A DNA stretch of 64,000 nt. Origin: Sphingobium baderi (GTDB taxonomy: Bacteria; Pseudomonadota; Alphaproteobacteria; Sphingomonadales; Sphingomonadaceae). The notes under the pieces were generated by a model. The model saw nothing but the letters and a program-made list of their open reading frames with translations, made no database searches and had not been told where the DNA came from. Shown one piece after another: positions 36,719 through 52,542 of this stretch (positions are counted from its first letter, which is position 1; each line of letters begins with the position of its first letter). Made by a program: the position numbers and the translations under genes. The stretch is taken from the NCBI RefSeq assembly GCF_001456115.1, contig NZ_CP013264.1, forward strand, positions 2,684,501 through 2,748,500, read 5' to 3'.

Positions 36719-37642
36719 TTAGAAGTCCTGCGCCGCCGGGGCAATGGCCGTCCCCTCCCACGGCGGCGTCGGCTGATATAATCCCGCCAGAAAATCAATG
36801 AAGGCGCTCAAGGCCAGCGGTGGATTGGGCTGCGGCAGGTGAACCGCGAACAGGCCGACGTCCGCCGATCCTTCCCATGCGGGCAAGATTTGCCGCACCT
36901 GTCCCAGCGCCAGCGCCTCGCTGATGTCCCAGAGCGAACGCAGCGCGATCCCCGTGCCCGCGATCGCCAGTTCACGCACGACCTCGCTGCTGTTGGTGGG
37001 GACATGGCTCACTCCGCCCACGCTGATGGCGCCGTCTGGGCCGGTCAGCCGCCATGGCAACTGCCCCTCCGCTGCCAGCAGCCTGTGTTTTTTGAGGTCC
37101 GCTATGTCCTGCGGAGCGCCGAACCGCTCCAGATAGGCGGGCGCGGCGCACAATATCCGCCTGTTGGTCGCGAGCCGCCTTGCCACGAGGCCCTGTCCCG
37201 GATCGACGGTGATGCGTATGGCAAGATCGGCCCGCGTGGCAAGCAGGTCGGCATAGTCATCCGACAGGTCGATATGCAGCGTAACGCGGGGATGTGCATC
37301 CATGAACCGCCCCAGATGCGGCGCGATATGCATCCGCCCGAAGGATGTGGGCGCGGTGATCCGTATCGTCCCCGAAGCTTCCTCACAGGCGCCCGACACG
37401 CGCCTTTCCGCTGCGTCCAGCGCCGTCATTATCTCCCGCAGGTCGTCATGCAGTCGCTCGCCCGCGGGCGTCAGCGCCAGCCTTCGCGTCGTGCGATGGA
37501 TCAGCCGCGCGCCCAGCCTTTCCTCCAGCCGCACCAGCCGCTTCGACACCATGGCGGGCGAAATGCGGAGCCGCCGCCCCGCCGCCGCCAGCCCGCCTTC
37601 GTCCATGATCGCGGCGAAGAGGTCGTAATCCGGGTCCATCAT
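36719..37642 (-). CDS. LysR-family transcriptional regulator divergent from malate synthase
   Basis: A 307-residue regulator with an N-terminal winged helix-turn-helix (DLFAAIMDEGGLAAAGRRLR, then ISPAMVSKRLVRLEERLG) and an effector-binding domain (about 90-300). It is transcribed away from glcB with 89 bases between starts, and a 28-base dyad lies in that gap, so control of glcB and of itself is likely. It is followed by maeB on its own strand after 10 bases, so it may also head a regulator-maeB transcript. The effector is unknown. Confidence 0.9.
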   Translation of the reverse strand: MMDPDYDLFAAIMDEGGLAAAGRRLRISPAMVSKRLVRLEERLGARLIHRTTRRLALTPAGERLHDDLREIMTALDAAERRVSGACEEASGTIRITAPTSFGRMHIAPHLGRFMDAHPRVTLHIDLSDDYADLLATRADLAIRITVDPGQGLVARRLATNRRILCAAPAYLERFGAPQDIADLKKHRLLAAEGQLPWRLTGPDGAISVGGVSHVPTNSSEVVRELAIAGTGIALRSLWDISEALALGQVRQILPAWEGSADVGLFAVHLPQPNPPLALSAFIDFLAGLYQPTPPWEGTAIAPAAQDF

Positions 37643-37653
37643 AATTTCACCAC

Positions 37654-37695
37654 AGGAAATTCTGAATTTATATAATATCCTCTACTGCGTATAAT
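37654..37695. promoter_or_regulatory. Dyad operator and -10 element in the lysR-glcB gap
   Basis: AGGAAATTCT (37654-37663) and its near mirror AATATCCT (ending 37681) make an imperfect 28-base dyad of the size LysR proteins bind. Downstream, TATAAT at 37690-37695 is a consensus -10 for glcB, 36 bases before its ATG. An AAGGAG ribosome site precedes the ATG. Confidence 0.55.
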
Positions 37696-37731
37696 GCCGA
37701 CCGTCTATGCTCCGCCGCAAAGGAGCATCGC

Positions 37732-39837
37732 ATGGGCAATATGATCGACAAGGCGGGCCTCAAGGTCGCGCAGCCACTCGCGACCTTCATCGAAGAGCGC
37801 GCGCTTCCCGGCACCGGCATCGACGCGCCGGCCTTCTGGTCCGGCGCGGCGGCGATCTTCGCCCAATTCGCCCCGAAAAACGCGGCCCTGCTCGCCAAGC
37901 GCGATAATCTCCAGAGTCGGATCGACGCCTTCTACAGCGACCGCGCGGGCCAACCCGGCAACGCGGCGGACTTGCGCGCTTTCCTCCAGGAAATCGGCTA
38001 TCTCGTCCCCGAACCCGCGCCCTTCACCGTCACCAGCGACAATGTCGACGATGAAGTTGCCCGCCTTGCCGGACCGCAGCTTGTCGTGCCGATCCTCAAC
38101 GCCCGTTTCCTCCTCAACGCCGCCAATGCGCGCTGGGGCAGCCTTTATGACGCGCTCTATGGCACGGATGCCATCCCTGGCGCTCCGGCGGGGAAGGGCT
38201 ATGACGCCGGGCGCGGCGCGCAGGTCATCGCCTGGGCAAAGGCGTTTCTCGATCAGGCTATCCCGCTCGCCGGCGGCAGTTGGGCGGGTCTCACCGATGC
38301 GGAAGGCATTTCCCTTGCCGATCCGACCCAGTATCGCGGCAAGAACGGGAAGGGGCGCCTGTTCCGCCACAACGGACTTCACATCGAAGTCGTGTTCGAC
38401 CGCGATCATCCCATCGGCAAAGACGATCCGGCAGGCATTGCCGACGTGATCCTGGAATCCGCGCTGACCACCATCTGCGACCTTGAGGACTCCGTCGCCG
38501 CCGTCGATGCGGAGGACAAGGTCGCCGCCTATGCCAACTGGCTGGGCCTGATGCAGGGCGACCTCACCGACACCTTCGAAAAGAATGGCGCGATAATGAC
38601 CCGCGCCCTCAACGCCGACCGCAGCTATACGGCGCCCGACGGCGGCAGCTTCACCTTGCCCGGCCGTAGCCTGCTTCTGGTCCGCAATGTCGGCCATCTG
38701 ATGACGACGCCCGCCATCCTCCTGCCCGATGGTAGCGAAGCGCCCGAAGGCATCCTTGACGGTATCGTCACCAGCCTGATCGCGATGCACGACCTCCAGC
38801 GCAAGGGCGGCTTCGCCAACAGCCGCTCAGGCAGCGTCTATATCGTCAAGCCCAAGATGCACGGGCCGGAGGAAGTGGGTTTCACCAACCGCCTCTTCGA
38901 CGCCATTGAGGATATGCTGGGCCTCGCCCGCCATACCATCAAGGTCGGCGTCATGGACGAGGAACGCCGCACTTCCGCCAATCTCGCCGCCTGCATCGAG
39001 GCGGTGAAGGGCCGGATCATCTTCATCAACACCGGCTTCCTCGACCGCACGGGGGATGAGATGCACACGGCGATGCGCGCCGGTCCCATGATCCGCAAGG
39101 GTGAGATGAAGGCGAGCGACTGGATCGCGGCCTATGAGGACCGCAATGTCCAGATCGGCCTCGCCTGCGGCCTTTCGGGGCGCGCGCAGATCGGCAAGGG
39201 CATGTGGGCCGCGCCCGACCGCATGGCCGATATGCTGGAACAGAAGATCGGCCATCCCAGGAGCGGCGCGAACACCGCCTGGGTGCCGTCGCCGACCGCC
39301 GCGACGCTCCACGCGACGCACTATCATCAGGTCGATGTCTTCGCCCGCCAGGCCGAACGGCGCGCCGAACCCATAGCGCCGCTCGAAAAGCTGCTGACCG
39401 TTCCCGTCGCCTCCGGCCGCAACTGGTCGGCGGAGGAAATTGTGGAGGAACTGGACAACAATGCTCAGGGCATATTGGGCTATGTCGTCCGTTGGGTGGA
39501 TCAGGGCGTAGGCTGTTCGAAGGTGCCGGACATTCACGATGTCGGCCTCATGGAGGATCGCGCGACCCTTCGGATTTCCTCCCAGCATATAGCGAATTGG
39601 CTGCTACACGGTGTCTGCACGGCGGAGCAGGTGGATGCCGCCTTCAAACGCATGGCAGTCAAGGTCGACACGCAGAATGCGGGCGATCCCCTCTATCAGC
39701 CCATTAGCGGTCGCGAGGAGGAAAGCCTTGCCTATCAGGCTGCCCACGCGCTGGTCTTCGAAGGGGTGACGCAGCCCAATGGCTATACAGAACCGCTGCT
39801 GCACCGATATCGCGCCCTTGCCAAGGCGGCGAGCTGA
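37732..39837 (+). CDS. glcB: Malate synthase G
   Basis: A 701-residue monomeric malate synthase, condensing glyoxylate and acetyl-CoA to malate in the glyoxylate bypass. Key blocks: [95 protein letters not shown] (catalytic Asp region) and [22 protein letters not shown]. It has the normal length for isoform G. Neighbours are a divergent LysR gene and maeB, so this is a small C2/C4-carbon metabolism group. It is followed by two hairpins before alaS. Confidence 0.97.
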
Positions 39838-39845
39838 GGGAAATG

Positions 39846-39873
39846 GACGGGCGGCGCATCAACGCCACCCGTC
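39846..39873 (+). terminator. Hairpin downstream of glcB
   Basis: GACGGGCGGCG (39846-39856) and CGCCACCCGTC (39863-39873) pair with one mismatch around a 6-base loop, 9 bases after the glcB stop. There is no T run. A second hairpin, GCCCCG / CGGGGC at 39909-39929, lies between it and alaS. Confidence 0.55.
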
Positions 39874-39950
39874 CCGCCAGATGATCCAATCGACCGATGC
39901 GATGAAAAGCCCCGCTTGTGCGCCGGGGCGCTTCCCACTAAATCGCCCCC

Positions 39951-42608
39951 ATGACCTCGACCAACGACATTCGCCGATCCTTCCTCGAATATTTCGGAGC
40001 GAACGGCCACACCATCGTCCCGTCCGCACCTCTGGTGCCACATAACGACCCGACGCTCATGTTCGTCAATGCGGGCATGGTGCCGTTCAAGAATGTCTTC
40101 ACGGGCCTTGAAACCCGGCCTTATACGACGGCGACCTCCAGCCAGAAGTCGGTGCGTGCCGGCGGCAAGCATAACGACCTCGACAATGTCGGCTACACCG
40201 CGCGGCACCATACTTTTTTCGAGATGCTGGGGAATTTCAGTTTCGGCGACTATTTCAAGGAACAGGCGATTCTTCACGCCTGGACGTTGCTGACGAAGGA
40301 ATGGGGACTTGCGGCGGAGAAGCTGACGGCGACGGTTTATCACACCGACGACGAAGCCTTTGATCTGTGGAAGAAAATCGCAGGCCTTCCCGATCACAGG
40401 ATCATCCGCATCCCGACCAAGGATAATTTCTGGGCCATGGGCGACAGCGGCCCGTGCGGTCCCTGCTCGGAGATTTTCTACGACCATGGCGAGCATATCT
40501 GGGGCGGCCCTCCCGGATCGCCGGAAGAGGATGGCGACCGTTTCGTCGAGATATGGAACCTCGTCTTCATGCAGTTCGAGCAGGAAGCGAACGAGATCGT
40601 CGGCAACCTGCCCAGGCCCAGCATCGACACCGGCATGGGGTTGGAGCGCATCGCCGCCGTCATGCAGGGGGTGCACGACAATTACGACACCGACACCTTC
40701 AAGGCGCTGATCGCGGAATCGGGCGCGCTGACCCGCACAGCGACCGACGGCGAATACAAGGCGAGCCATCGCGTCATCGCGGACCACCTCCGCTCGACCA
40801 GCTTCCTGATCGCGGACGGGGTGCTGCCCGCCAATGAGGGCCGGGGCTATGTCCTTCGCCGGATCATGCGCCGCGCGATGCGCCACGCCCATATCATCGG
40901 CGCGAAGGAGCCGCTGATGTATCGCCTCGTCGGCGGCCTCGTGTCCGAAATGGGCGGGGCCTATCCCGAACTGGTGCGCGCGCAGCCGCTGATCGAGGAA
41001 ACGCTGCTGCGGGAGGAAACGCGTTTCCGCAAGACGCTGGAAAACGGCCTGAAACTGCTCGACGAAGCCACCGCCGGTCTTGGCGAGAGCGGGACGTTGC
41101 CGGGCGAGACGGCGTTCAAGCTCTACGACACCTATGGCTTCCCTTATGACCTCACCGAGGACGCGCTGCGTTCGCGCGGGTTGGGCGTGGACCGGGACGG
41201 CTTCGACAAGGCGATGGCCGAGCAGAAAGCCGCCGCCCGCGCCGCGTGGAAGGGTTCGGGCGAAAAGGCGTCGGACGAAATCTGGTTCGATATCGCGGAA
41301 AGCGCGGGCAGCACCGAGTTTATCGGCTACAACTCGACAGAGGGCGAAGGCGAAGTGCTGGCGCTGGTCAAGGATGGCGCGCGCGTCGATGGCGCTGGGC
41401 CCGGCGATGAAGTGACAATCATTACAAACCAGACGCCTTTCTATGGCGAAAGCGGTGGCCAGATGGGCGATGCGGGTAGCATAACGTCGCAGACCGGGCT
41501 GGTCGCGGACGTGTCAGATACCGCGAAGCCGCTCGGCCGCCTGAACGCACACCGGGCGAAGGTTGGCGCGGGCAGCATCAAAATCGGCGATACCGTGCAT
41601 TTGAGCGTCGATAGGGACCGCCGCGACCGGCTGCGCGCCAATCATAGCGCGACCCATTTACTTCATGCGGCGCTTCGCAATCGACTCGGCGCGCATGTGA
41701 CGCAGAAGGGGAGCCTGGTGGCGCCGGATCGTCTGCGTTTCGATTTCTCGCACCCCGAAGCGTTGACGCATAGCCAGATTGCAGCGGTCGAGGCCGATGT
41801 GAACGAGCAGGTTCGTCATAATGAAGCGGTCACGACCCGTCTGATGACGCCAGACGATGCGGTGTCGGCCGGAGCGCTGGCGCTGTTCGGTGAGAAATAT
41901 GGCGATGAGGTCCGCGTTCTTTCCATGGGGCGTGGCGACGAACACAGCTATTCGGTGGAATTGTGCGGCGGCACCCACGTCCGGGCGACGGGTGATATCG
42001 CGCTCTTCAAGATCATTTCGGAAAGCGCGGTTTCCTCAGGCGTTCGCCGCATTGAGGCGCTGACAGGCGAGGCTGCCCGTCTATGGCTGTCCGATCGCGA
42101 GGATCGCTTGCGTCAGTCGGCGGCGGCGCTCAAGACGACGCCGGAGGAAGTGCCTGTCCGTATCGCGGCGCTGGTGGAACAGAGCCGGAAACTGGAGCGG
42201 GAGTTGGCTGAAGCGAAGAAGGCGCTGGCTCTTGGCGGCGGCAGCGGTCCGGCTCAACCGGCGGGGCCGGAACAGGTGGGGAATGTCAACTTTATTGGTC
42301 AGGTAATCGAAGGCCTGGACCCCAAGGAACTGCGCGGCATTGTTGATCAGAACAAGACGACGCTGGGCAGCGGTGTTTCGGCGGTTTTGGCTGTCACCGA
42401 TGGCCGGGCCAGCATTGCCGTGGGCGTGACCGATGATCTGATGGGCAGCATCAGCGCGGTCGACCTGGTCCGCGCGGGCGTGGAAACTCTTGGGGGGAAG
42501 GGCGGCGGCGGCCGGCCGGACATGGCGCAGGGCGGCGGCCCAGACGGCGACAAGGCCGCTGCGGCCATAGAAGCCGTAAAGGCAGCGTTGACGCAAGTTC
42601 CCGCCTGA
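39951..42608 (+). CDS. alaS: Alanyl-tRNA synthetase
   Basis: An 885-residue class II synthetase. The catalytic core begins [20 protein letters not shown], with [11 protein letters not shown] and the motif 2 region [20 protein letters not shown], and [11 protein letters not shown]. The editing domain has the zinc histidines in [13 protein letters not shown] and the later [12 protein letters not shown]. The C-terminal part has [18 protein letters not shown]. All parts are present and the length is normal. Confidence 0.98.
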
Positions 42609-42619
42609 GGGAAGGCGCG

Positions 42620-42657
42620 CGTCAGGCCAGAGCGATAGGACTCTCCGGCCTGACGCC
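42620..42657. terminator. Bidirectional hairpin between alaS and the Kef-type antiporter gene
   Basis: GCGTCAGGCC (42620-42629) and GGCCTGACGC (42648-42657) form a perfect 10-bp stem, with GAG/CTC pairing inside the loop. It sits between convergent genes, 12 bases after the alaS stop. No clear T run on either side. Confidence 0.6.
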
Positions 42658-42712
42658 ACGCTGGCCTTGTTTGGATTGAAGCGTCTTCACAGGACCGCGC
42701 TCGGGACCGAAT

Positions 42713-44497
42713 TTAAGGCACTTCGTCGGCGCGCAGGCGGCGCAGCTTCGGGGCGTTTTCAAGCTGCGCGGCATCCTTGATCCCGATACGGAGGTCTTCG
42801 CGCATCTGGTGGACGGAGGCTATCACCGGTCCCATGGCGATGCCGAGATCGACGAGCGCGGTCTCCGCCAGTTGCAACGAGCTTTCCAGCGTTTCGGGTA
42901 CGGCGTCACTCGCCCCCGCCCGATAAAGCTGCGCGGCATGTTCGGTATCGCGTGCGCGGGCGATGATGGGAAGATCAGACACCCAGCCGCGCACCCGCTT
43001 GGTCACGCGGACAGACAGCACCGGATCATCCATGGTCAGGATCAACGCGCGGGCATGCCCCAATCGCAGCCGATCGAGCATTTCCGCTCGCGATACATCG
43101 CCAAAGAGGATCGGATAGCCGCTCCGGCGGGCTTCGGCGACCACATCCGGGTCGGATTCCACAACGATGAACCGCTGCTTATGCATTTTGAGCAGATCGC
43201 ACACCATGCGGCCAACACGTCCAAAGCCGATGACAACGGCGGCGGCCTCTATCAGTTCTTCCTTCACCTCCACCGCTTCCTCGCCCAGCGCCATTTCAAG
43301 GCGGCGGGCGATGTCGTGGCCGATGCGGGCGAGAAGCGGCGTGATGGTAAGGCCGATTGCGGTCACGATCTGCCAGAAAGCTGCGGTGGAAGGGAGGATC
43401 AGTTTGGCCGCCGCTGCCGCCGACAGCACGATCAGCGTGGTTTCAGACGGGCTGGACATCAGTACGCCAACCTCCAGCGCCACGCCCTTACGTGCGCCGG
43501 AGAAATAAAGGAGCGCCGCCGTCACCAGCGTTTTGGCGAGGATGACCCCCATGACGGCCAGCACCAGACTTGGCCAGTTGGCGAGGATGACGCGTATGTC
43601 GAGGCTCATGCCCACGGTGATGAGGAAAACGCCCAGCGCCAGTCCCTTGAACGGCGCGGTCATCACTTCGACCTCGCCATGATATTCGGTTTCGGCGATC
43701 AGCAGACCCGCCAGCAGCGCGCCGACGATGGGGGACAGGCCCGCGATGGACGTGGCAAGGCTGGAGACGATCACCACCAGCAGACTGGCGGCAAGGAAAA
43801 CCTCGGGGCTCTTGGTGCGTGCGGCCTGGCTGAAGATATGAGGCAGAATGATGCGACCGAGCACCAGCATGATAGCAATGGTGATGCCGCCCCTAAGCAG
43901 CGTGCTCGCCAATTCGCCCCATGCACCATCGGGGCTTGCTGCAACGGAAGGGGCGAGCGCGCCCAGCATGAAAATGATGGGGACGAGCGCCAGATCCTCA
44001 AACAGCAGCATCGAAAAGGCGGCGCGTCCCACCGCGCTCTGGGTGCCGACCATGGGAAGCACCACGGCGGTTGAGGACAATGCGAGCGCGAGGCCAAGGC
44101 CGATCGCGCCCGCCGTGGGCTGACCCAATATATAAAGACCTGCGGCGATCAGCAGGCCGCTGCCGAGCAGCTCGGCGGCACCAACGCCGAACACCTGCGT
44201 CCGCATGGTCCATAAGCGACGAAAACTCAGTTCCAACCCTATGGAAAACAGCAATAGTATGACGCCAAGTTCCGCGAAGGGCTCTATCGCCTCCTGATTG
44301 GATATGGTGATATGATAAAGCCAGGGATATTGGCCCACCAGCGATCCCAGCCCCGCCGGGCCGACCGCGAGGCCTACCAAGATGAAACCGATGACCGGGC
44401 TGATGCGGAAACGAGCAAATCCGGGAATGACCAGACCGGCTGCGCCGAGGATGACAAGGGAATCACTGAAGCTTTGAGGATTGATTGCGCCGGCCAT
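42713..44497 (-). CDS. Kef/YbaL-type cation:proton antiporter with TrkA-N domain
   Basis: A 594-residue CPA2-family transporter. The first 400 residues form about 12 membrane helices (for example GVILLLFSIGLELSFRRLW, typical of KefB/YbaL). A cytoplasmic Rossmann RCK/TrkA-N domain follows, with VVIGFGRVGRMVCDLLKMHK and ESDPDVVAEARRSGYPILFGD. It probably exchanges K+ for H+ and responds to bound nucleotide. No KefF/KefG-like partner is adjacent. It is divergent from the F420 cluster, with a 257-base gap between starts. Confidence 0.9.
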   Translation of the reverse strand: MAGAINPQSFSDSLVILGAAGLVIPGFARFRISPVIGFILVGLAVGPAGLGSLVGQYPWLYHITISNQEAIEPFAELGVILLLFSIGLELSFRRLWTMRTQVFGVGAAELLGSGLLIAAGLYILGQPTAGAIGLGLALALSSTAVVLPMVGTQSAVGRAAFSMLLFEDLALVPIIFMLGALAPSVAASPDGAWGELASTLLRGGITIAIMLVLGRIILPHIFSQAARTKSPEVFLAASLLVVIVSSLATSIAGLSPIVGALLAGLLIAETEYHGEVEVMTAPFKGLALGVFLITVGMSLDIRVILANWPSLVLAVMGVILAKTLVTAALLYFSGARKGVALEVGVLMSSPSETTLIVLSAAAAAKLILPSTAAFWQIVTAIGLTITPLLARIGHDIARRLEMALGEEAVEVKEELIEAAAVVIGFGRVGRMVCDLLKMHKQRFIVVESDPDVVAEARRSGYPILFGDVSRAEMLDRLRLGHARALILTMDDPVLSVRVTKRVRGWVSDLPIIARARDTEHAAQLYRAGASDAVPETLESSLQLAETALVDLGIAMGPVIASVHQMREDLRIGIKDAAQLENAPKLRRLRADEVP

Positions 44498-44754
44498 GCT
44501 CTATCATCGCGGCGTGGCATGCGAATATCCAGAGTTTTTCAGTAGAAATATCCAGATGCCATCATCAGCCATCGCGACTGACGTTGAAGACGGTGGTCGT
44601 TCCGGCGGGCGAAATCGGTCTGCGCGCATCATATGCGGGATTGCTTTGCGATTCAGTGTTGCGGAGGGCTTGACCTCCGTGCTGATCGCCCTCAATCGTC
44701 GATACAAGATGCCCGGTTCCGGCATTCGCATCACGGGGGTTCGACCGTTTCATC

Positions 44755-45531
44755 ATGACTTCTGCCGCATCGGCCACCGCCACCCTGCTTGCCCTGGGCG
44801 GCATGCCTATGATCGGGCAGGGCGACGATCTTTCCGGAATGATCCTTGATGCGCTGGAGCGGTCGGGAGAAATTTTGCTGGATGGCGACATCATCGTTCT
44901 CGCGCAGAAGATTGTGTCGAAGGCGGAAGGGCGGGCCGTTTCTCTGGCGCAGGTCGTGCCTTCCACCGAGGCGAGGGAACTGGCGTTGCGATGCGATAAG
45001 GACCCACGTCTTGTGGAACTGGTCCTTTCCGAAACGGATAAGGTGATGCGTGTCCGTAAAGGCGTGCTCGTCGTCCGTCATCGGCTGGGCTTGGTGTTGG
45101 CCAACGCAGGCATCGACCAGTCGAACATCGCGCAGGATGAAGACGGTGTCGCGCTCCTGCTGCCGCTTGATCCAGACGCCAGCTGCGCGGTCATCCGGGA
45201 AGAGATCGTACGGCGGACGGAAAAGGATATCGCTGTGTTGATCATTGACAGTTTGGGTAGGGCCTGGCGCAAGGGCACCTGTGGCATCGCCATCGGTGTG
45301 AGCGGAATGGCCGGACTGTTGGATCTGCGCGGCACACCGGATTTGCACGGACGACAGCTTCAGACAAGTGAGTTAGGCCTTGCCGACGAAGTGGCAGCGG
45401 CGGCATCGCTGGTCATGGGACAGGGCGACGAAGGGCGGCCGGTCGTTCTTGTCCGGGGTGTCGGCCGCGGACGTTCCAAAGGCAGCGCTGCCGAATTGAT
45501 CCGCGAGCCTGAGCTGGACCTTTTTCCATGA
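44755..45531 (+). CDS. cofE: Coenzyme F420-0:L-glutamate ligase
   Basis: A 258-residue CofE/FbiB-N-family ligase that adds glutamate to F420-0 using GTP. The family signature is clear: DGDIIVLAQKIVSKAEGR (43-60), KDPRLVELVLSET, GLVLANAGIDQSN, LLPLDPDASCAVIREEI, IIDSLGRAWRKGTCGIAIGV and ADEVAAAASLVMGQGDEG. There is no C-terminal nitroreductase (FbiB-C) domain, so this is the short CofE form. The start lacks a strong ribosome site. The stop overlaps cofD (ATGA). First gene of a cofE-cofD-cofC unit. Confidence 0.95.
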   Translation: MTSAASATATLLALGGMPMIGQGDDLSGMILDALERSGEILLDGDIIVLAQKIVSKAEGRAVSLAQVVPSTEARELALRCDKDPRLVELVLSETDKVMRVRKGVLVVRHRLGLVLANAGIDQSNIAQDEDGVALLLPLDPDASCAVIREEIVRRTEKDIAVLIIDSLGRAWRKGTCGIAIGVSGMAGLLDLRGTPDLHGRQLQTSELGLADEVAAAASLVMGQGDEGRPVVLVRGVGRGRSKGSAAELIREPELDLFP

Positions 45532-46469
45532 GCGTGCTGGCATTGGCAGGTGGCGTGGGCGGAGCGAAACTCGCCAATGGACTTGCCGCGATATTACCGC
45601 TGGGGACACTTACCATAGCGGTCAACACGGGCGATGATTTCGAGCATCTCGGATTGCTTATCTGTCCCGATCTCGACAGCGTGACCTATGCGCTGGCGGA
45701 TATGAACAATGTGGAACTGGGCTGGGGCGTTGCGGATGAAAGCTGGGCCTTCATGGATGCCATTGCCCGGCTGGGTGGCGAAACATGGTTCCGGCTGGGT
45801 GATCGCGATCTGGCGACGCATATCCTGCGACGGCAGCTCATGCAGCAGGGGGATTTGTCCGCAGCAACGGATGAAATCGGGCGGCGCCTTGGTATAGCGC
45901 AGAGGATTGTGCCGATGAGCGATGATCCCGTCCGGTCCATCGTGTCGACGGATCGTGGGGATCTGCCTTTTCAAGATTATTTCGTCCGCTATCAATGCGC
46001 GCCGCGATTTGAATCGATCCGCTTTGACGGAGTCGAGAAGGCGCGGCCCAGTGCTGGATTTCTCGCGGCGCTCGGTGATCCGGCGCTGGAAGCCATCATT
46101 CTCTGCCCGTCCAATCCACTGCTGTCGATTGCGCCGATATTGGCGGTGCCGGGCGTGCGCGAACATATTGTCAACCGGAACGTGCCCTGCATCGCCCTGT
46201 CGCCTTTCATCGCGGGGCAGGCGGTTAAGGGACCGGCAGCCAAGATTATGACCGAGTTGGGCATTGCCACCACGCCGGCAGCCGTGGCCGCCCATTATGG
46301 CGAACTGATCGACGGATTGGTGATCGATACCGCTGACGTGGGCGCATTGTCAGACAAGCGGCCGGCCCTTTTCGCCACGGATATATTGATGCGCGATCCG
46401 GCGGATCAACGGCGTCTGGCGAGCGAAGTGCTGGACTTTGCGCGTGCCCTGAGCGCGACCGCGCGCTAA
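45528..46469 (+). CDS. cofD: 2-phospho-L-lactate (or phosphoenolpyruvate) transferase of F420 synthesis
   Basis: A 313-residue CofD/FbiA-family enzyme. It transfers the phospho-lactyl or phosphoenolpyruvyl group from its GDP carrier to FO. Family motifs: LALAGGVGGAKLANGL (4-19), VNTGDDFEHLGLLICPDLDS, GWGVADESWAFMDAI, WFRLGDRDLATHILRR, IVPMSDDPVRSIV, LPFQDYFVRYQ and CPSNPLLSIAPILAVPGV. All look intact. It is translationally coupled to cofE, and cofC follows after 5 bases. Confidence 0.96.
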   Translation: MSVLALAGGVGGAKLANGLAAILPLGTLTIAVNTGDDFEHLGLLICPDLDSVTYALADMNNVELGWGVADESWAFMDAIARLGGETWFRLGDRDLATHILRRQLMQQGDLSAATDEIGRRLGIAQRIVPMSDDPVRSIVSTDRGDLPFQDYFVRYQCAPRFESIRFDGVEKARPSAGFLAALGDPALEAIILCPSNPLLSIAPILAVPGVREHIVNRNVPCIALSPFIAGQAVKGPAAKIMTELGIATTPAAVAAHYGELIDGLVIDTADVGALSDKRPALFATDILMRDPADQRRLASEVLDFARALSATAR

Positions 46470-46474
46470 GCCGC

Positions 46475-47056
46475 ATGGCAGGCACCATCATCATTCCAGT
46501 CAAGCCTTTCCATGAAGGTAAAACCCGGCTTGCGTCCATCCTGACCCCGGAACAGCGCAAACGGCTGAGCTGCGATTTCTTCCAGCATGTCCTTACGTTG
46601 GCCAAGGACCGGGCATTGAATGCAGAGGTGCTGGTCGTCAGCCGGTGCCAGGAAGCCTTGGAGATGGCGCGTAAAGCTGGTGCCCGAAGCATGATTGAGC
46701 GGGGACAGGGCCAGAACAGCGCGCTGGAGCAGGCGATGGGCCGGGTAAATGGATCGGTTTTGTTGTTGAGTTCTGACCTTCCCTTCCTGATCACGGAAGA
46801 TCTCGCAGCCATGCTCGCGTTGAGAGAAACCGTGGATGTCGGAATCGCCACGGACAAAGCAAGGGCCGGCACTAACGCGCTTTTTCTGGCCCAGCCACGC
46901 CTGATCCGTCCTTGTTTCGGGCCGGATAGCCGTGCGCTGCATGAAGCAGAGGCGGACAGGGCGGGGTTGCGCTGGACAGTGGTAGAACGGATCGGCTTGG
47001 CTCATGACGTGGATCGACCCGAAGACCTGCTGTTTCTGAACAATCGCTCCTGTTGA
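46475..47056 (+). CDS. cofC: 2-phospho-L-lactate guanylyltransferase-type enzyme of F420 synthesis
   Basis: A 193-residue CofC/FbiD nucleotidyltransferase that makes the GDP-activated three-carbon donor for CofD. The start IIIPVKPFHEGKTRLASILT with a K-x-x-x-x-K-[ST]-R-L pattern, LLLSSDLPFL for the metal/nucleotide Asp, and GTNALFLAQP followed by FGPDSRALHEAEA are family traits. The donor could be 2-phospholactate, phosphoenolpyruvate or 3-phosphoglycerate; sequence inspection does not settle this. The FO synthase genes (cofG/cofH or fbiC) are not in the window and must be elsewhere if the pathway is complete. Confidence 0.93.
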   Translation: MAGTIIIPVKPFHEGKTRLASILTPEQRKRLSCDFFQHVLTLAKDRALNAEVLVVSRCQEALEMARKAGARSMIERGQGQNSALEQAMGRVNGSVLLLSSDLPFLITEDLAAMLALRETVDVGIATDKARAGTNALFLAQPRLIRPCFGPDSRALHEAEADRAGLRWTVVERIGLAHDVDRPEDLLFLNNRSC

Positions 47057-47229
47057 CTTAGCGGGGAAGTTGCTGGCCGCGCTGGGCGACCCGAGGCGGC
47101 ACAGGATGGCATCATATGTCTGCCCGGGCGGCGAGCAAGATACTGGTGGAGCGTTTGGGGTTTTTCCTCTGCATCGACGGCGATTCGCATGCTAGGAATT
47201 ATCGGTATCTACTCGAAAGGATCCTCCTA

Positions 47230-48441
47230 ATGTCGCTGCGCCGGGCCGCAATTGTTTCGCCCATTCGCACTCCCGTGGGAAAATTTCTTGGCAGTCTGTC
47301 CCCGGTTTCAGCGGGAGAACTGGCGGCAGTGATCATGCGAGCACTGATCGGCCGCTCCGGGGTGGATCCTGACAGGATCGATGATATCGTATTTGCCCAG
47401 GCCTATGGGAATGGCGAAGCGCCGTGTGTCGCGCGCTGGTCCGCACTCGCCGCCGGTCTGCCTATCTCGATCCCCGGCTATCAACTCGACCGGCGTTGCG
47501 GCTCTGGTTTGCAAGCAGTGATCGATGCCGCGATGATGGTGCAAACAGGAGCAGCCGACGTTGTGGTGGCGGGTGGCGTGGAAAGCATGTCAAATGTCGA
47601 ATATTATTCGACTGACTTGCGGAAGGGCGCCCGTGCTGGCTCCGTAACCATGCACGACCGGTTGATTCGTGGCCGGATCATGTCGCAACCTGCCGCACGG
47701 TGCGGCGTCATCAGTGGAATGATCGAAACAGCCGAAAACCTGGCACGGGACTATGACATCACGCGCGCCCAATGCGATGCCTATGCGGCGGCCAGCCATC
47801 AGCGTGCCACTGCGGCATGGGCAAATGGCGTTTTTGCCGATGAGATCGTTCCCGTACCTGTCCCGCAAAAGCCAGGCGATCCGCTGATGTTTAGCCATGA
47901 CGAGGGATATCGCCCGGATGCGACGGCGGAATCGCTCGCAACATTGCGTCCCCTAGAGGGCGGCGTCGTCACTGCGGGGAATGCCAGCCAGCAAAATGAT
48001 GCCGCTGCAGCTTGCCTGGTGGTCGCGGAGGATAAATTGGCCGAACTGCGGTTGGAGCCGATTGCATGGTTTCACAGTTGGGCGGCAGCGGGCTGTGAAC
48101 CCTCGCGCATGGGGATAGGGCCAGTTCCTGCCGTGGAACGGCTATTCGCTCGATCCGGGCTTGGCTGGAGTGATATTGACCTTATCGAACTGAACGAAGC
48201 CTTTGCGTCTCAGGTGTTGGCTGTGCTCAAGGGGTGGGGGTGGAGCGCGACGGACGAACGCCACGCCCTCCTCAATGTCAATGGGTCGGGCATTTCCCTT
48301 GGTCACCCGATTGGTGCGACGGGAGGACGGATTCTCGCCAATCTGACCCGTGAACTCAAACGGCGCGGTGGACGCTTTGGATTGGAGACGATGTGCATTG
48401 GAGGGGGGCAGGGCATCGCGGCGATATTCGAAGCAGCCTGA
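47230..48441 (+). CDS. Thiolase-family acetyl-CoA C-acyltransferase
   Basis: A 403-residue degradative/biosynthetic thiolase. Nucleophilic Cys90 is in YQLDRRCGSGLQAV, followed by AGGVESMSN, LNEAFASQ, the catalytic His in NGSGISLGHPIGATG and Cys in METMCIGGGQG-like ETMCIGGGQGIA. I start at the ATG at 47230, which has an AGGA ahead and gives MSLRRAAIVSPIRTPVGKF; the frame extends to 47116 without family similarity. It follows cofC by 173 bases on the same strand. A functional tie to F420 is not evident; lipid or aromatic beta-oxidation is the general role. Confidence 0.92.
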   Translation: MSLRRAAIVSPIRTPVGKFLGSLSPVSAGELAAVIMRALIGRSGVDPDRIDDIVFAQAYGNGEAPCVARWSALAAGLPISIPGYQLDRRCGSGLQAVIDAAMMVQTGAADVVVAGGVESMSNVEYYSTDLRKGARAGSVTMHDRLIRGRIMSQPAARCGVISGMIETAENLARDYDITRAQCDAYAAASHQRATAAWANGVFADEIVPVPVPQKPGDPLMFSHDEGYRPDATAESLATLRPLEGGVVTAGNASQQNDAAAACLVVAEDKLAELRLEPIAWFHSWAAAGCEPSRMGIGPVPAVERLFARSGLGWSDIDLIELNEAFASQVLAVLKGWGWSATDERHALLNVNGSGISLGHPIGATGGRILANLTRELKRRGGRFGLETMCIGGGQGIAAIFEAA

Positions 48442-50709: not shown

Positions 50710-50819
50710 CGACCTCAACCCCGGCGGTCATCCTGATCGCCGGGGCCATGGTTACGGGGCGGTCGGGCGTCCAGCCGACCTTCGTTTCATTACGGAAGCT
50801 GCACAGGAAAGGAACCATC

Positions 50820-51461
50820 ATGACGAGCGAATCCATCCGCGATCCCAAGGCGGATCATCTGCTGACACCGCAAAATTCGGCCTTTATCATCATCGACTAT
50901 CAACCGGTCCAGGTGAATTCGATCGCCTCGATGGATCGGCAACTGCTGCTCAACAACATCGTCGGCTGCGCCAAGGCGGCGGTCGCCTATGATCTGCCGA
51001 TCGTGCATTCGACCGTGAACGTCGAAACCGGCCTCAACCACCCGCCGGTCCCGCAAGTACGCAAAGCGCTGGCCAATTATCCGACCTATGACCGCACGAG
51101 CATCAACAGCTGGGAAGATATCGAATTTCGCCAGGCAGTGGAGGCGACGGGGCGCAAGAAGCTGATCATGACCGCGCTCTGGACCGAAGCCTGCCTGACC
51201 TTCCCGGCGCTCGATGCACTGAAGGAAGGATATGAAGTTTATGTTCCGGTCGATGCGGTTGGGGGGACATCGCTGGCCGCACATGAGGCAGCCCTCCGCC
51301 GGATCGAGCAAGCCGGTGGCAAGATGATCTCGGTGCCCCAGCTTTTCTGTGAACTGCAGCGTGACTGGAAACGCAGCGAGACCGTGCCCGCCTTCATGAA
51401 CCTGTTCATCGAAACCGGTGGCACCGCTGGCATCCAGTTTTCCTACGACAAGGCCGACTGA
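50820..51461 (+). CDS. Isochorismatase-family cysteine hydrolase (YcaC-like)
   Basis: A 213-residue hydrolase with the Asp-Lys-Cys layout: Asp in FIIIDYQPVQVNS, and the nucleophilic Cys in ALWTEACLTFPALDAL, then VYVPVDAVGGTSLAAHEAAL, which is the YcaC-type signature. Substrates of this group are amides or are unknown. A strong AGGAAAGGA site precedes the ATG at 50820, and the upstream part of the frame (from 50748) is not conserved. It lies between the pirin pseudogene and a related hydrolase fusion. Confidence 0.88.
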   Translation: MTSESIRDPKADHLLTPQNSAFIIIDYQPVQVNSIASMDRQLLLNNIVGCAKAAVAYDLPIVHSTVNVETGLNHPPVPQVRKALANYPTYDRTSINSWEDIEFRQAVEATGRKKLIMTALWTEACLTFPALDALKEGYEVYVPVDAVGGTSLAAHEAALRRIEQAGGKMISVPQLFCELQRDWKRSETVPAFMNLFIETGGTAGIQFSYDKAD

Positions 51462-51531
51462 TTTTTTCGATCACGGCCAGACGGCATCACGCCTTGGCCG
51501 TGATCGACCTCCACTCCGCAGGAGAAATTCC

Positions 51532-52542
51532 ATGTCTTCCCCCGCCAATTTCAACGGCAGCCGACCGATCATCGATCCTGACGATTCCGTGATGCTGCTG
51601 ATCGACCATCAGAGCGGCCTGTTCCAGACCGTTGGCGACATGCCGATGCCTGAATTGCGATCTCGAGCCGGCGCGCTCGCCTCGATCGCGACGCTGGCCA
51701 AAATCCCTGTCATCACGACCGCGTCAGTACCCCAGGGGCCGAATGGTCCGCTGATCCCGGAAATCCATGCCAATGCGCCACATGCCCAATATGTGGCCCG
51801 CCGGGGCGAGATCAACGCATGGGATAATCCCGATTTCATTGCAGCGGTCAAAGCGACTGGACGCGGGACGCTAATTATTGCGGGTACGATCACCAGTGTC
51901 TGTATGGCCTTCCCCTCTATTGCCGCCGTGCAGGATGGCTATCGCGTGTTCGCGGTGGTTGATGCGTCGGGAACCTATTCGAAGATGGCGCAAGAAATCA
52001 CGCTGGCGCGTGTTGTCCAGGCGGGCGTGGTGCCAATGGATACGGCCGCCGTCGCATCGGAAATCCAGAAGACATGGCATCGCGATGATGCGGAAAAATG
52101 GGCCGAGATTTATACCCGCATATTCCCGCCCTATCAGTTACTGATCGAAAGCTATGCCAAGGCGCAACAGGTTGCGATCGAACATGAAATGCCCGATTCA
52201 CAGCGGAGATGGAAACCAAATATGGCCGGCGCCCTGCCGGCCACGTCGAAAGGCGGACATATGACGAATAAGGTGATCGATAATCCCGCTGAACATCGGT
52301 TTGAGCTGGATCTGGGCGGCGACGCATTGGCGGCGGCCTATTATCGGATCGAGGAGGGACGGGTGGTTCTGATCCATACCGAAGTCCCCTATGCCTTTTC
52401 CGGTCAGGGCGTGGGCACAAGATTGGCCACAGGCGTGTTCGACCTCATATGTGCCAGCGGTCGCAAGGCCGTGCTGAAATGCAGCTTCATGGCACGCTTC
52501 TTCGCGAGCCATCCCGAATATGCCGATATTGTTGACGGCTGA
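51532..52542 (+). CDS. Isochorismatase-family hydrolase fused to a GNAT-like (YidJ-type) acetyltransferase domain
   Basis: One 336-residue frame. Residues 1-225 are a YcaC-like hydrolase (MLLIDHQSGLFQTVGDM with the Asp, and AGTITSVCMAFPSIAAVQDG with the Cys). Residues 244-336 form a small GNAT-like domain of the COG2388 kind: VIDNPAEHRFELDLGG, AYYRIEEGRVVLIHTEVP, SGQGVGTRLATGVFD and a terminal HPEYADIVDG. The second domain begins at an internal ATG (52261) that has its own AAAGGCGG site, so two products may be made: a fusion and a free GNAT. These are normally separate genes. GGAG precedes the first ATG. Confidence 0.82.
   Translation: MSSPANFNGSRPIIDPDDSVMLLIDHQSGLFQTVGDMPMPELRSRAGALASIATLAKIPVITTASVPQGPNGPLIPEIHANAPHAQYVARRGEINAWDNPDFIAAVKATGRGTLIIAGTITSVCMAFPSIAAVQDGYRVFAVVDASGTYSKMAQEITLARVVQAGVVPMDTAAVASEIQKTWHRDDAEKWAEIYTRIFPPYQLLIESYAKAQQVAIEHEMPDSQRRWKPNMAGALPATSKGGHMTNKVIDNPAEHRFELDLGGDALAAAYYRIEEGRVVLIHTEVPYAFSGQGVGTRLATGVFDLICASGRKAVLKCSFMARFFASHPEYADIVDG

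Follow-up and report, generated by a model that had tools for sequence, protein, structure and literature searches.

How a bacterium comes to carry one part of the coenzyme F420 pathway at a single locus, and whether the remainder lies elsewhere in its genome, is the question raised by the genes cofE, cofD and cofC of Sphingobium baderi. The trio stands in a stretch of 64,000 nucleotides that was analysed as a whole and is here termed the window (C1:2684501-2748500; the genome comprises 4,583,422 bases in 9 contigs and is 99.99% complete). The families of the three genes are ordinary; the point of interest is their arrangement. Very probably, the trio functions as the second half of an F420 pathway that became split over two loci after a deletion in an operon designated type I. 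In such a pathway CofC would activate a three-carbon phospho-acid (2-phospholactate or phosphoenolpyruvate, PEP) with GTP, CofD would transfer the activated acid to FO, and CofE would add the glutamate tail. FO would be supplied by a CofGH (FbiC) fusion whose gene lies some 0.85 Mb from the trio, an NpdG encoded in the same remote run would reduce the cofactor from NADPH, and the adjoining luciferase-like oxidoreductases would use it.

The gene trio and the remainder of the pathway

As the original prediction held, the three genes are intact and closely packed on one strand in the open reading frame list of the window, and each product scores above the cut-off of its curated NCBIfam equivalog family, as well as matching the Pfam family of the same name. 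The first gene, cofE (44755..45531, plus strand, 258 amino acids; TIGR01916, 253.1 bits against a cut-off of 180.65), encodes an F420-0:L-glutamate ligase with 164 bits to solved F420-0:gamma-glutamyl ligases; the ligase domain (PF01996) is its sole domain, which bears out its description as the short form lacking the nitroreductase domain of FbiB. Overlapping it, cofD (fbiA; 45528..46469, plus strand, 313 amino acids; TIGR01819, 280.6 bits against 257.45) encodes the transferase of the three-carbon acid to FO, with Asp at both positions aligned (counted by hand) with Asp45 and Asp57, the metal-binding residues of FbiA as named in an excerpt of PMC7253369. The guanylyltransferase that activates the three-carbon acid is encoded by cofC (fbiD; 46475..47056, plus strand, 193 amino acids; TIGR03552, 144.7 bits against 105), and its catalytic residues Lys17, Asp116, Asp188, Asp190 and Ser166 (FbiD numbering) are all kept. 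Relative to the nearest relative, genome G037, dN/dS (NG86) is 0.104 for cofE, 0.098 for cofD and 0.131 for cofC, values that are approximate because dS (0.87, 1.03 and 1.59, respectively) is near saturation; this comparison indicates that purifying constraint acts on the trio. The sphingomonad background of the genes was likewise confirmed, the best eight named records among the CofD relatives being Sphingomonadaceae, Sphingobium or Novosphingobium. In a profile search of the whole genome, the window copy is the only CofD at or above the cut-off.

An FO synthase, which the original prediction would have sought in the rest of the genome, is present as a CofGH/FbiC fusion of 779 amino acids at C1:3583870-3586209 (NF006687, the bifunctional CofGH family: 1134 bits, cut-off 1018), and it accounts for the one CofH match above the cut-off. 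The same gene run encodes NpdG (also Fno), the F420:NADPH oxidoreductase (TIGR01915, 181 bits against 149.8), which by family assignment would be an F420-reducing enzyme; it is the only npdG match in the genome at E up to 1e-30. All 15 luciferase-like proteins of the genome (PF00296) were scanned against families, and six score at or above the cut-off of families labelled F420-dependent by NCBI, a label derived from annotation and not from assays: three belong to TIGR03619, one of them barely (167.0 against 166.9), and three to TIGR03857. One further protein reaches the cut-off of TIGR03558, a family not named F420-dependent. The lone PNPOx-like match (PF01243) may be an ordinary pyridoxamine-phosphate oxidase, and no Ddn-type match (PF04075) was found in the genome or in any control, which leaves this negative without weight. 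None of the 15 luciferase-like matches, nor the PNPOx-like one, lies inside the window, in keeping with the earlier statement that no F420-dependent enzyme is recognizable there. With an FO synthase, NpdG and luciferase-like families named F420-dependent all in the genome, the suggestion that the strain may make F420 is upheld on its genomic side.

The same genes occur together in a set of 100 genomes, this one included, which are related to each other, so that Fisher values overstate their independence. A cofD above the cut-off is found in 34 of these genomes, and in 30 of the 61 in the genus set. CofH (E up to 1e-60) was detected in 33 of the 34 cofD-positive genomes and in none of the 66 cofD-negative ones, FO synthase being confined to genomes with cofD. 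For NpdG (E up to 1e-30) the counts are 30 of the 34 and none of the 66; NpdG alone is missed in G069, G074 and G094. In G014 (locus L176) cofE, cofD and cofC are present, and FO synthase and NpdG, not found in the assembly, were either lost or are missing from it. For G005, CofH is matched in part and under the cut-off, and NpdG falls just below its own. TIGR03619 exceeds its cut-off in 18 of the cofD-positive genomes versus one cofD-negative genome (G095), and TIGR03857 (E up to 1e-60) occurs in 10 versus one (G043). The TIGR03857 protein of G043 (405 bits; G043:C16:81625-82605, locus L221) thus stands in a genome without cofD, and is either not F420-dependent or the leftover of a lost system.

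A deletion joint and two operon lineages

Directly upstream of cofE lies a relic of about 150 bp (44590..44743, plus strand), the 3' end of a type I npdG, frameshifted and with its stop codon lost. Its DNA match extends over 44590-44758 and L160:8020-8189 (83.5% identity, E 4e-46, one-base gap), and its protein match is split over two frames (25 and 28 residues). The relic begins at a joint (44589..44590, without strand). In a blastn comparison with G037, window positions 36750-44589 correspond to C1:703176-710974 of that genome and positions 44590-47037 to C1:739019-741456; the two collinear blocks abut in the window and are separated by 28,044 bp in G037. Read with these alignments, the relic shows the window locus to have lost fbiC-npdG at the least; fbiC would be absent here because the deletion took it together with most of npdG.

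Some of this 28-kb difference may stem from an insertion in G037. Within the segment, the approximately 10 kb nearest cofE has 80-94% amino-acid identity to other type I loci and contains genes, several of them named by sight, for an acyl-CoA synthetase, a transporter, an acyl-CoA dehydrogenase, an SDR, a phosphotransferase-like and a TetR-like protein, followed by fbiC and npdG. The other 18 kb has matches of 26-64%, or none, among the loci compared, and may be peculiar to G037; its genes, named by sight, are PQQ-dehydrogenase-like, enoyl-CoA-hydratase-like, CoA-transferase-like, luciferase-like and thiolase-like. The landmark to the left of the deletion is a gene for a KefB/KefC-type cation:proton antiporter (42713..44497, minus strand), which in G037 lies about 28 kb from cofE. 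It is found on the same contig as the type I locus and within about 55 kb of it in G037 (28 kb), G058 (7 kb), G008 (38 kb) and G012 (53 kb), and it is 0.35-1.1 Mb away in G016, G022 and G030 and on a separate contig in G018 and G029. With the antiporter gene near in four genomes and distant or on another contig in five others, the type I locus has moved in part of the genus. These distances bear on the idea that cofEDC arrived alone by horizontal transfer beside kefB, with no deletion at all. The patchiness of F420 genes in the genus (30 of 61 genomes) and the remoteness of kefB in G016, G022 and G030 would suit a lone transfer, but the npdG relic adjoins cofE in the way a full npdG does where the type I operon is intact, and kefB shares a contig with the type I locus, at no more than about 55 kb, in the four genomes named; we regard such a transfer as extremely improbable.

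Across 81 loci (80 CofD relatives and the window), 48 have an FbiC-like gene no more than 8 kb from cofD and 38 have an NpdG-like gene in that range, counts that depend on single-linkage clusters named by likeness and are depressed by short contigs. The order fbiC, npdG, cofE, cofD is found in L024-L029 and L031. In the runs of Sphingobium scionense (L025) and Novosphingobium (L026-L029, L031), cofE and cofD are 67-73% identical to those of the window and the order cofE-cofD-cofC is the same (L026 ends after cofD); fbiC and npdG stand directly upstream in these runs, whereas the window has only the npdG relic in their place. Two records in the CofD comparison are out of place: CofD from L062 (a metagenome-assembled genome, or MAG, named Klebsiella pneumoniae) and L050 (a Chloroflexi MAG) falls among proteobacterial CofD, and both are possibly mis-binned contigs.

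Phylogenetic trees (FastTree, SH-like support only) separate the two halves of the pathway by descent. The window CofD is sister to that of G037 (support 99), within a clade of intact type I operons, and the genome's own FbiC, entered twice (L019 and L002), groups with G005, G006, G007, G008, G013 and G057 (support 100). This placement assigns the fbiC and npdG that survive in the genome to a second lineage of operons, type II. Type I fbiC-npdG and cofEDC are found together in six genomes (G016, G018, G022, G029, G030 and G037). The opposite state, judged on 14-17 kb around fbiC-npdG, is found in G008, G012, G050 and G058, where type I fbiC-npdG is without cofEDC and another cofEDC lies elsewhere; G024 and G027 resemble it, as judged on short loci only. 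We infer that the opposite state reflects loss and not original absence. In G057 a type B cofEDC sits inside the type II operon, and G001 (L164) has the run fbiC-npdG-cofE-cofD-cofC with FbiC and CofD near the type II and type B groups. Among the genomes tabulated, type I cofEDC is combined with type II fbiC in the present genome (G000) alone.

These patterns suggest a sequence of events in which an ancestor carried the type I operon fbiC-npdG-cofE-cofD-cofC at the window locus and a deletion took fbiC and all of npdG but its last 150 bp or so. The loss would have been tolerated because the type II operon provides FbiC and NpdG, and the pathway would then be a patchwork kept complete after the trimming of redundant operons. 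If so, two redundant operons that each lost a complementary half, leaving a relic and a base-exact joint, offer a clear natural case of a modular cofactor pathway kept complete. The trio might instead be a stranded remnant on its way to loss, in a cell that makes FO and no F420: it lacks the upstream genes of its operon and probably the ancestral promoter, relatives indicate that halves of the operon can be lost, and G014 retains cofEDC where no FO synthase was found. This is unlikely, however, as the three reading frames are intact with dN/dS of about 0.10-0.13, the trio carries the only CofD found in the genome, and luciferase-like families named F420-dependent are retained. Counting against a working pathway of split origin are a consensus scan of 44300-47400 (a weak test), which found no sigma-70-like promoter, the state of G014, a kefB neighborhood that is not universal, and the missing match to an FbiE-type reductase considered below.

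The three-carbon donor and the final reduction

The original prediction called for comparison of the CofC active site with characterized enzymes. Ser or Thr at CofC position 162 is tied to the use of 3-phosphoglycerate (3PG), which is supposed to arise where a dehydro-F420 reductase is missing, and assays with foreign CofD are flagged as misleading (PMC8764529). Of three solved CofC relatives of the window protein, that of Mycetohabitans (7p97) scores best (57.6 bits); relative to it the window CofC has Gly for Ser162, Gln for Met91 and Leu for Cys95. Position 162 is Gly in 90 of 91 CofC (the window and 90 loci) and Asp in one; this lone Asp is in the CofC of L092:8939-9679, which possibly has a different donor specificity.

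No reductase of the FbiB C-terminal or FbiE type was found above the cut-off in the genome (best 54.6 bits against 249.55), in agreement with the statement that dehydro-F420 reduction would need another enzyme. The same search placed none of the 34 F420-positive genomes above the cut-off, 28 of them having a weak match (best 67 bits), and none of 14 controls, so that its sensitivity is unproven. The gene at C1:937175-937693 was rejected as a candidate dehydro-F420 reductase: it encodes BluB (248 bits, cut-off 150) and sits, by sight, in an apparent cobalamin gene run. Among known systems, the mycobacterial FbiABCD set (M. tuberculosis, M. smegmatis) shares with this genome the FbiC fusion and homologues of FbiA/CofD and FbiD/CofC, Gly163 and Ser166 of FbiD being kept in the window CofC; it differs in that the window CofE is without the C-terminal reductase domain of mycobacterial FbiB, for which no separate protein above the cut-off was found.

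A strain making 3PG-F420, like Mycetohabitans, would be consistent with the missing reductase match and with the polar Gln that the window CofC has at the pocket position equivalent to Leu92, but the Gly in place of the Ser or Thr tied to 3PG use makes this product of the window CofC very unlikely. The predicted variant cofactor is accordingly weakened as regards 3PG; 2-phospholactate, or PEP together with a further putative reductase, remain as candidate donors because of Gly at 162 and the lack of an FbiE-type match above the cut-off. If PEP is the donor, one step is left unexplained, since no FbiE-type reductase was found.

The pocket position (91/92) itself varies with lineage. Over 94 rows (the 91 CofC and three solved structures) it is Leu in 61, His in 24, Gln in 4, Ile in 3, and Met and Val in one each. 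Among 33 distinct rows, 32 from the genus and one from another family, type I CofC have His (5) or Gln (2: the window and G037), and the remaining rows show Leu (25) or Met (1). Leu or Met is also what the three structurally solved CofC carry there. It is conceivable, if rather doubtful, that type I CofC/CofD pairs make an F420 whose three-carbon link is different or left unreduced, or that they feed another reductase. If this is true, Sphingobium would hold two kinds of F420 side-chain system, differing in the three-carbon pocket of CofC, and the His or Gln seen at this position outside the genus too would point to a wider class. The genus also makes testable how bacteria without a recognizable FbiE finish F420.

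The distant operon and the neighbors of the trio

The type II run (L019:1274-12107, equal to C1:3581274-3592107) reads MalT-like regulator, BKACE, CoA-transferase, luciferase-like protein (LLM), FbiC, SDR, NpdG and a second LLM, all on the strand of FbiC. One of the two luciferase-like proteins exceeds the TIGR03619 cut-off and the other is below every cut-off. Compared with G007 and G008, BKACE of this run is 96-99% identical and FbiC 83-90%. A long gene adjoins the type II LLM gene in G008, G007, G006 and G057 (L171:10982-13438 and equal places in L173, L175 and L191) and is missing in the present genome; in G008 its TonB-receptor-like product has 137 bits to TIGR01783, below the cut-off, and the other three are judged TonB-receptor-like by sight and place. 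This gene content suggests a catabolic role for the type II operon, perhaps with import. Its BKACE has 536.7 bits (cut-off 430) to a family named 3,5-dioxohexanoate:acetyl-CoA acetone transferase, and an enzyme acting on 3,5-dioxohexanoate belongs to phloroglucinol breakdown according to an excerpt of PMC10470551; a phloroglucinol-like substrate is our guess from these two points. The analysis as a whole places the F420 gene set in nearly half of the Sphingobium genomes (30 of 61) and links it to a catabolic-looking operon with luciferase-like oxidoreductases.

F420 genes in the genus are not claimed here as unreported, although no title on F420 operons in sphingomonads was among the literature matches listed. 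An excerpt lists coenzyme F420 genes in Novosphingobium strains (PMC13318209), and PMC8359052 contains the terms F420, sphingomonad and FbiC. In the portion available, PMC8498797 reports trace amounts of F420 in alphaproteobacterial producers and has no word beginning with Sphingo, and the F420 passage in the portion available of PMC11446756 does not concern Sphingobium.

Downstream of cofC, an acetyl-CoA acetyltransferase gene (47230..48441, plus strand; NF004853, 662.5 bits) has a reading frame that opens at 47116, the likely start at 47230 being a reading by hand. This thiolase was rejected as part of a conserved cof operon: the thiolase encoded after cofC in relatives is not orthologous to it, sharing 41-42% identity, whereas one encoded some 7-8 kb further on, on the opposite strand, in L155 and L158 is 77-80% identical to it. 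Farther along the window, at 50748-52542, a pirin gene is followed by two adjoining reading frames of the isochorismatase family (YcaC-like), the second of which additionally has an N-acetyltransferase-like domain.
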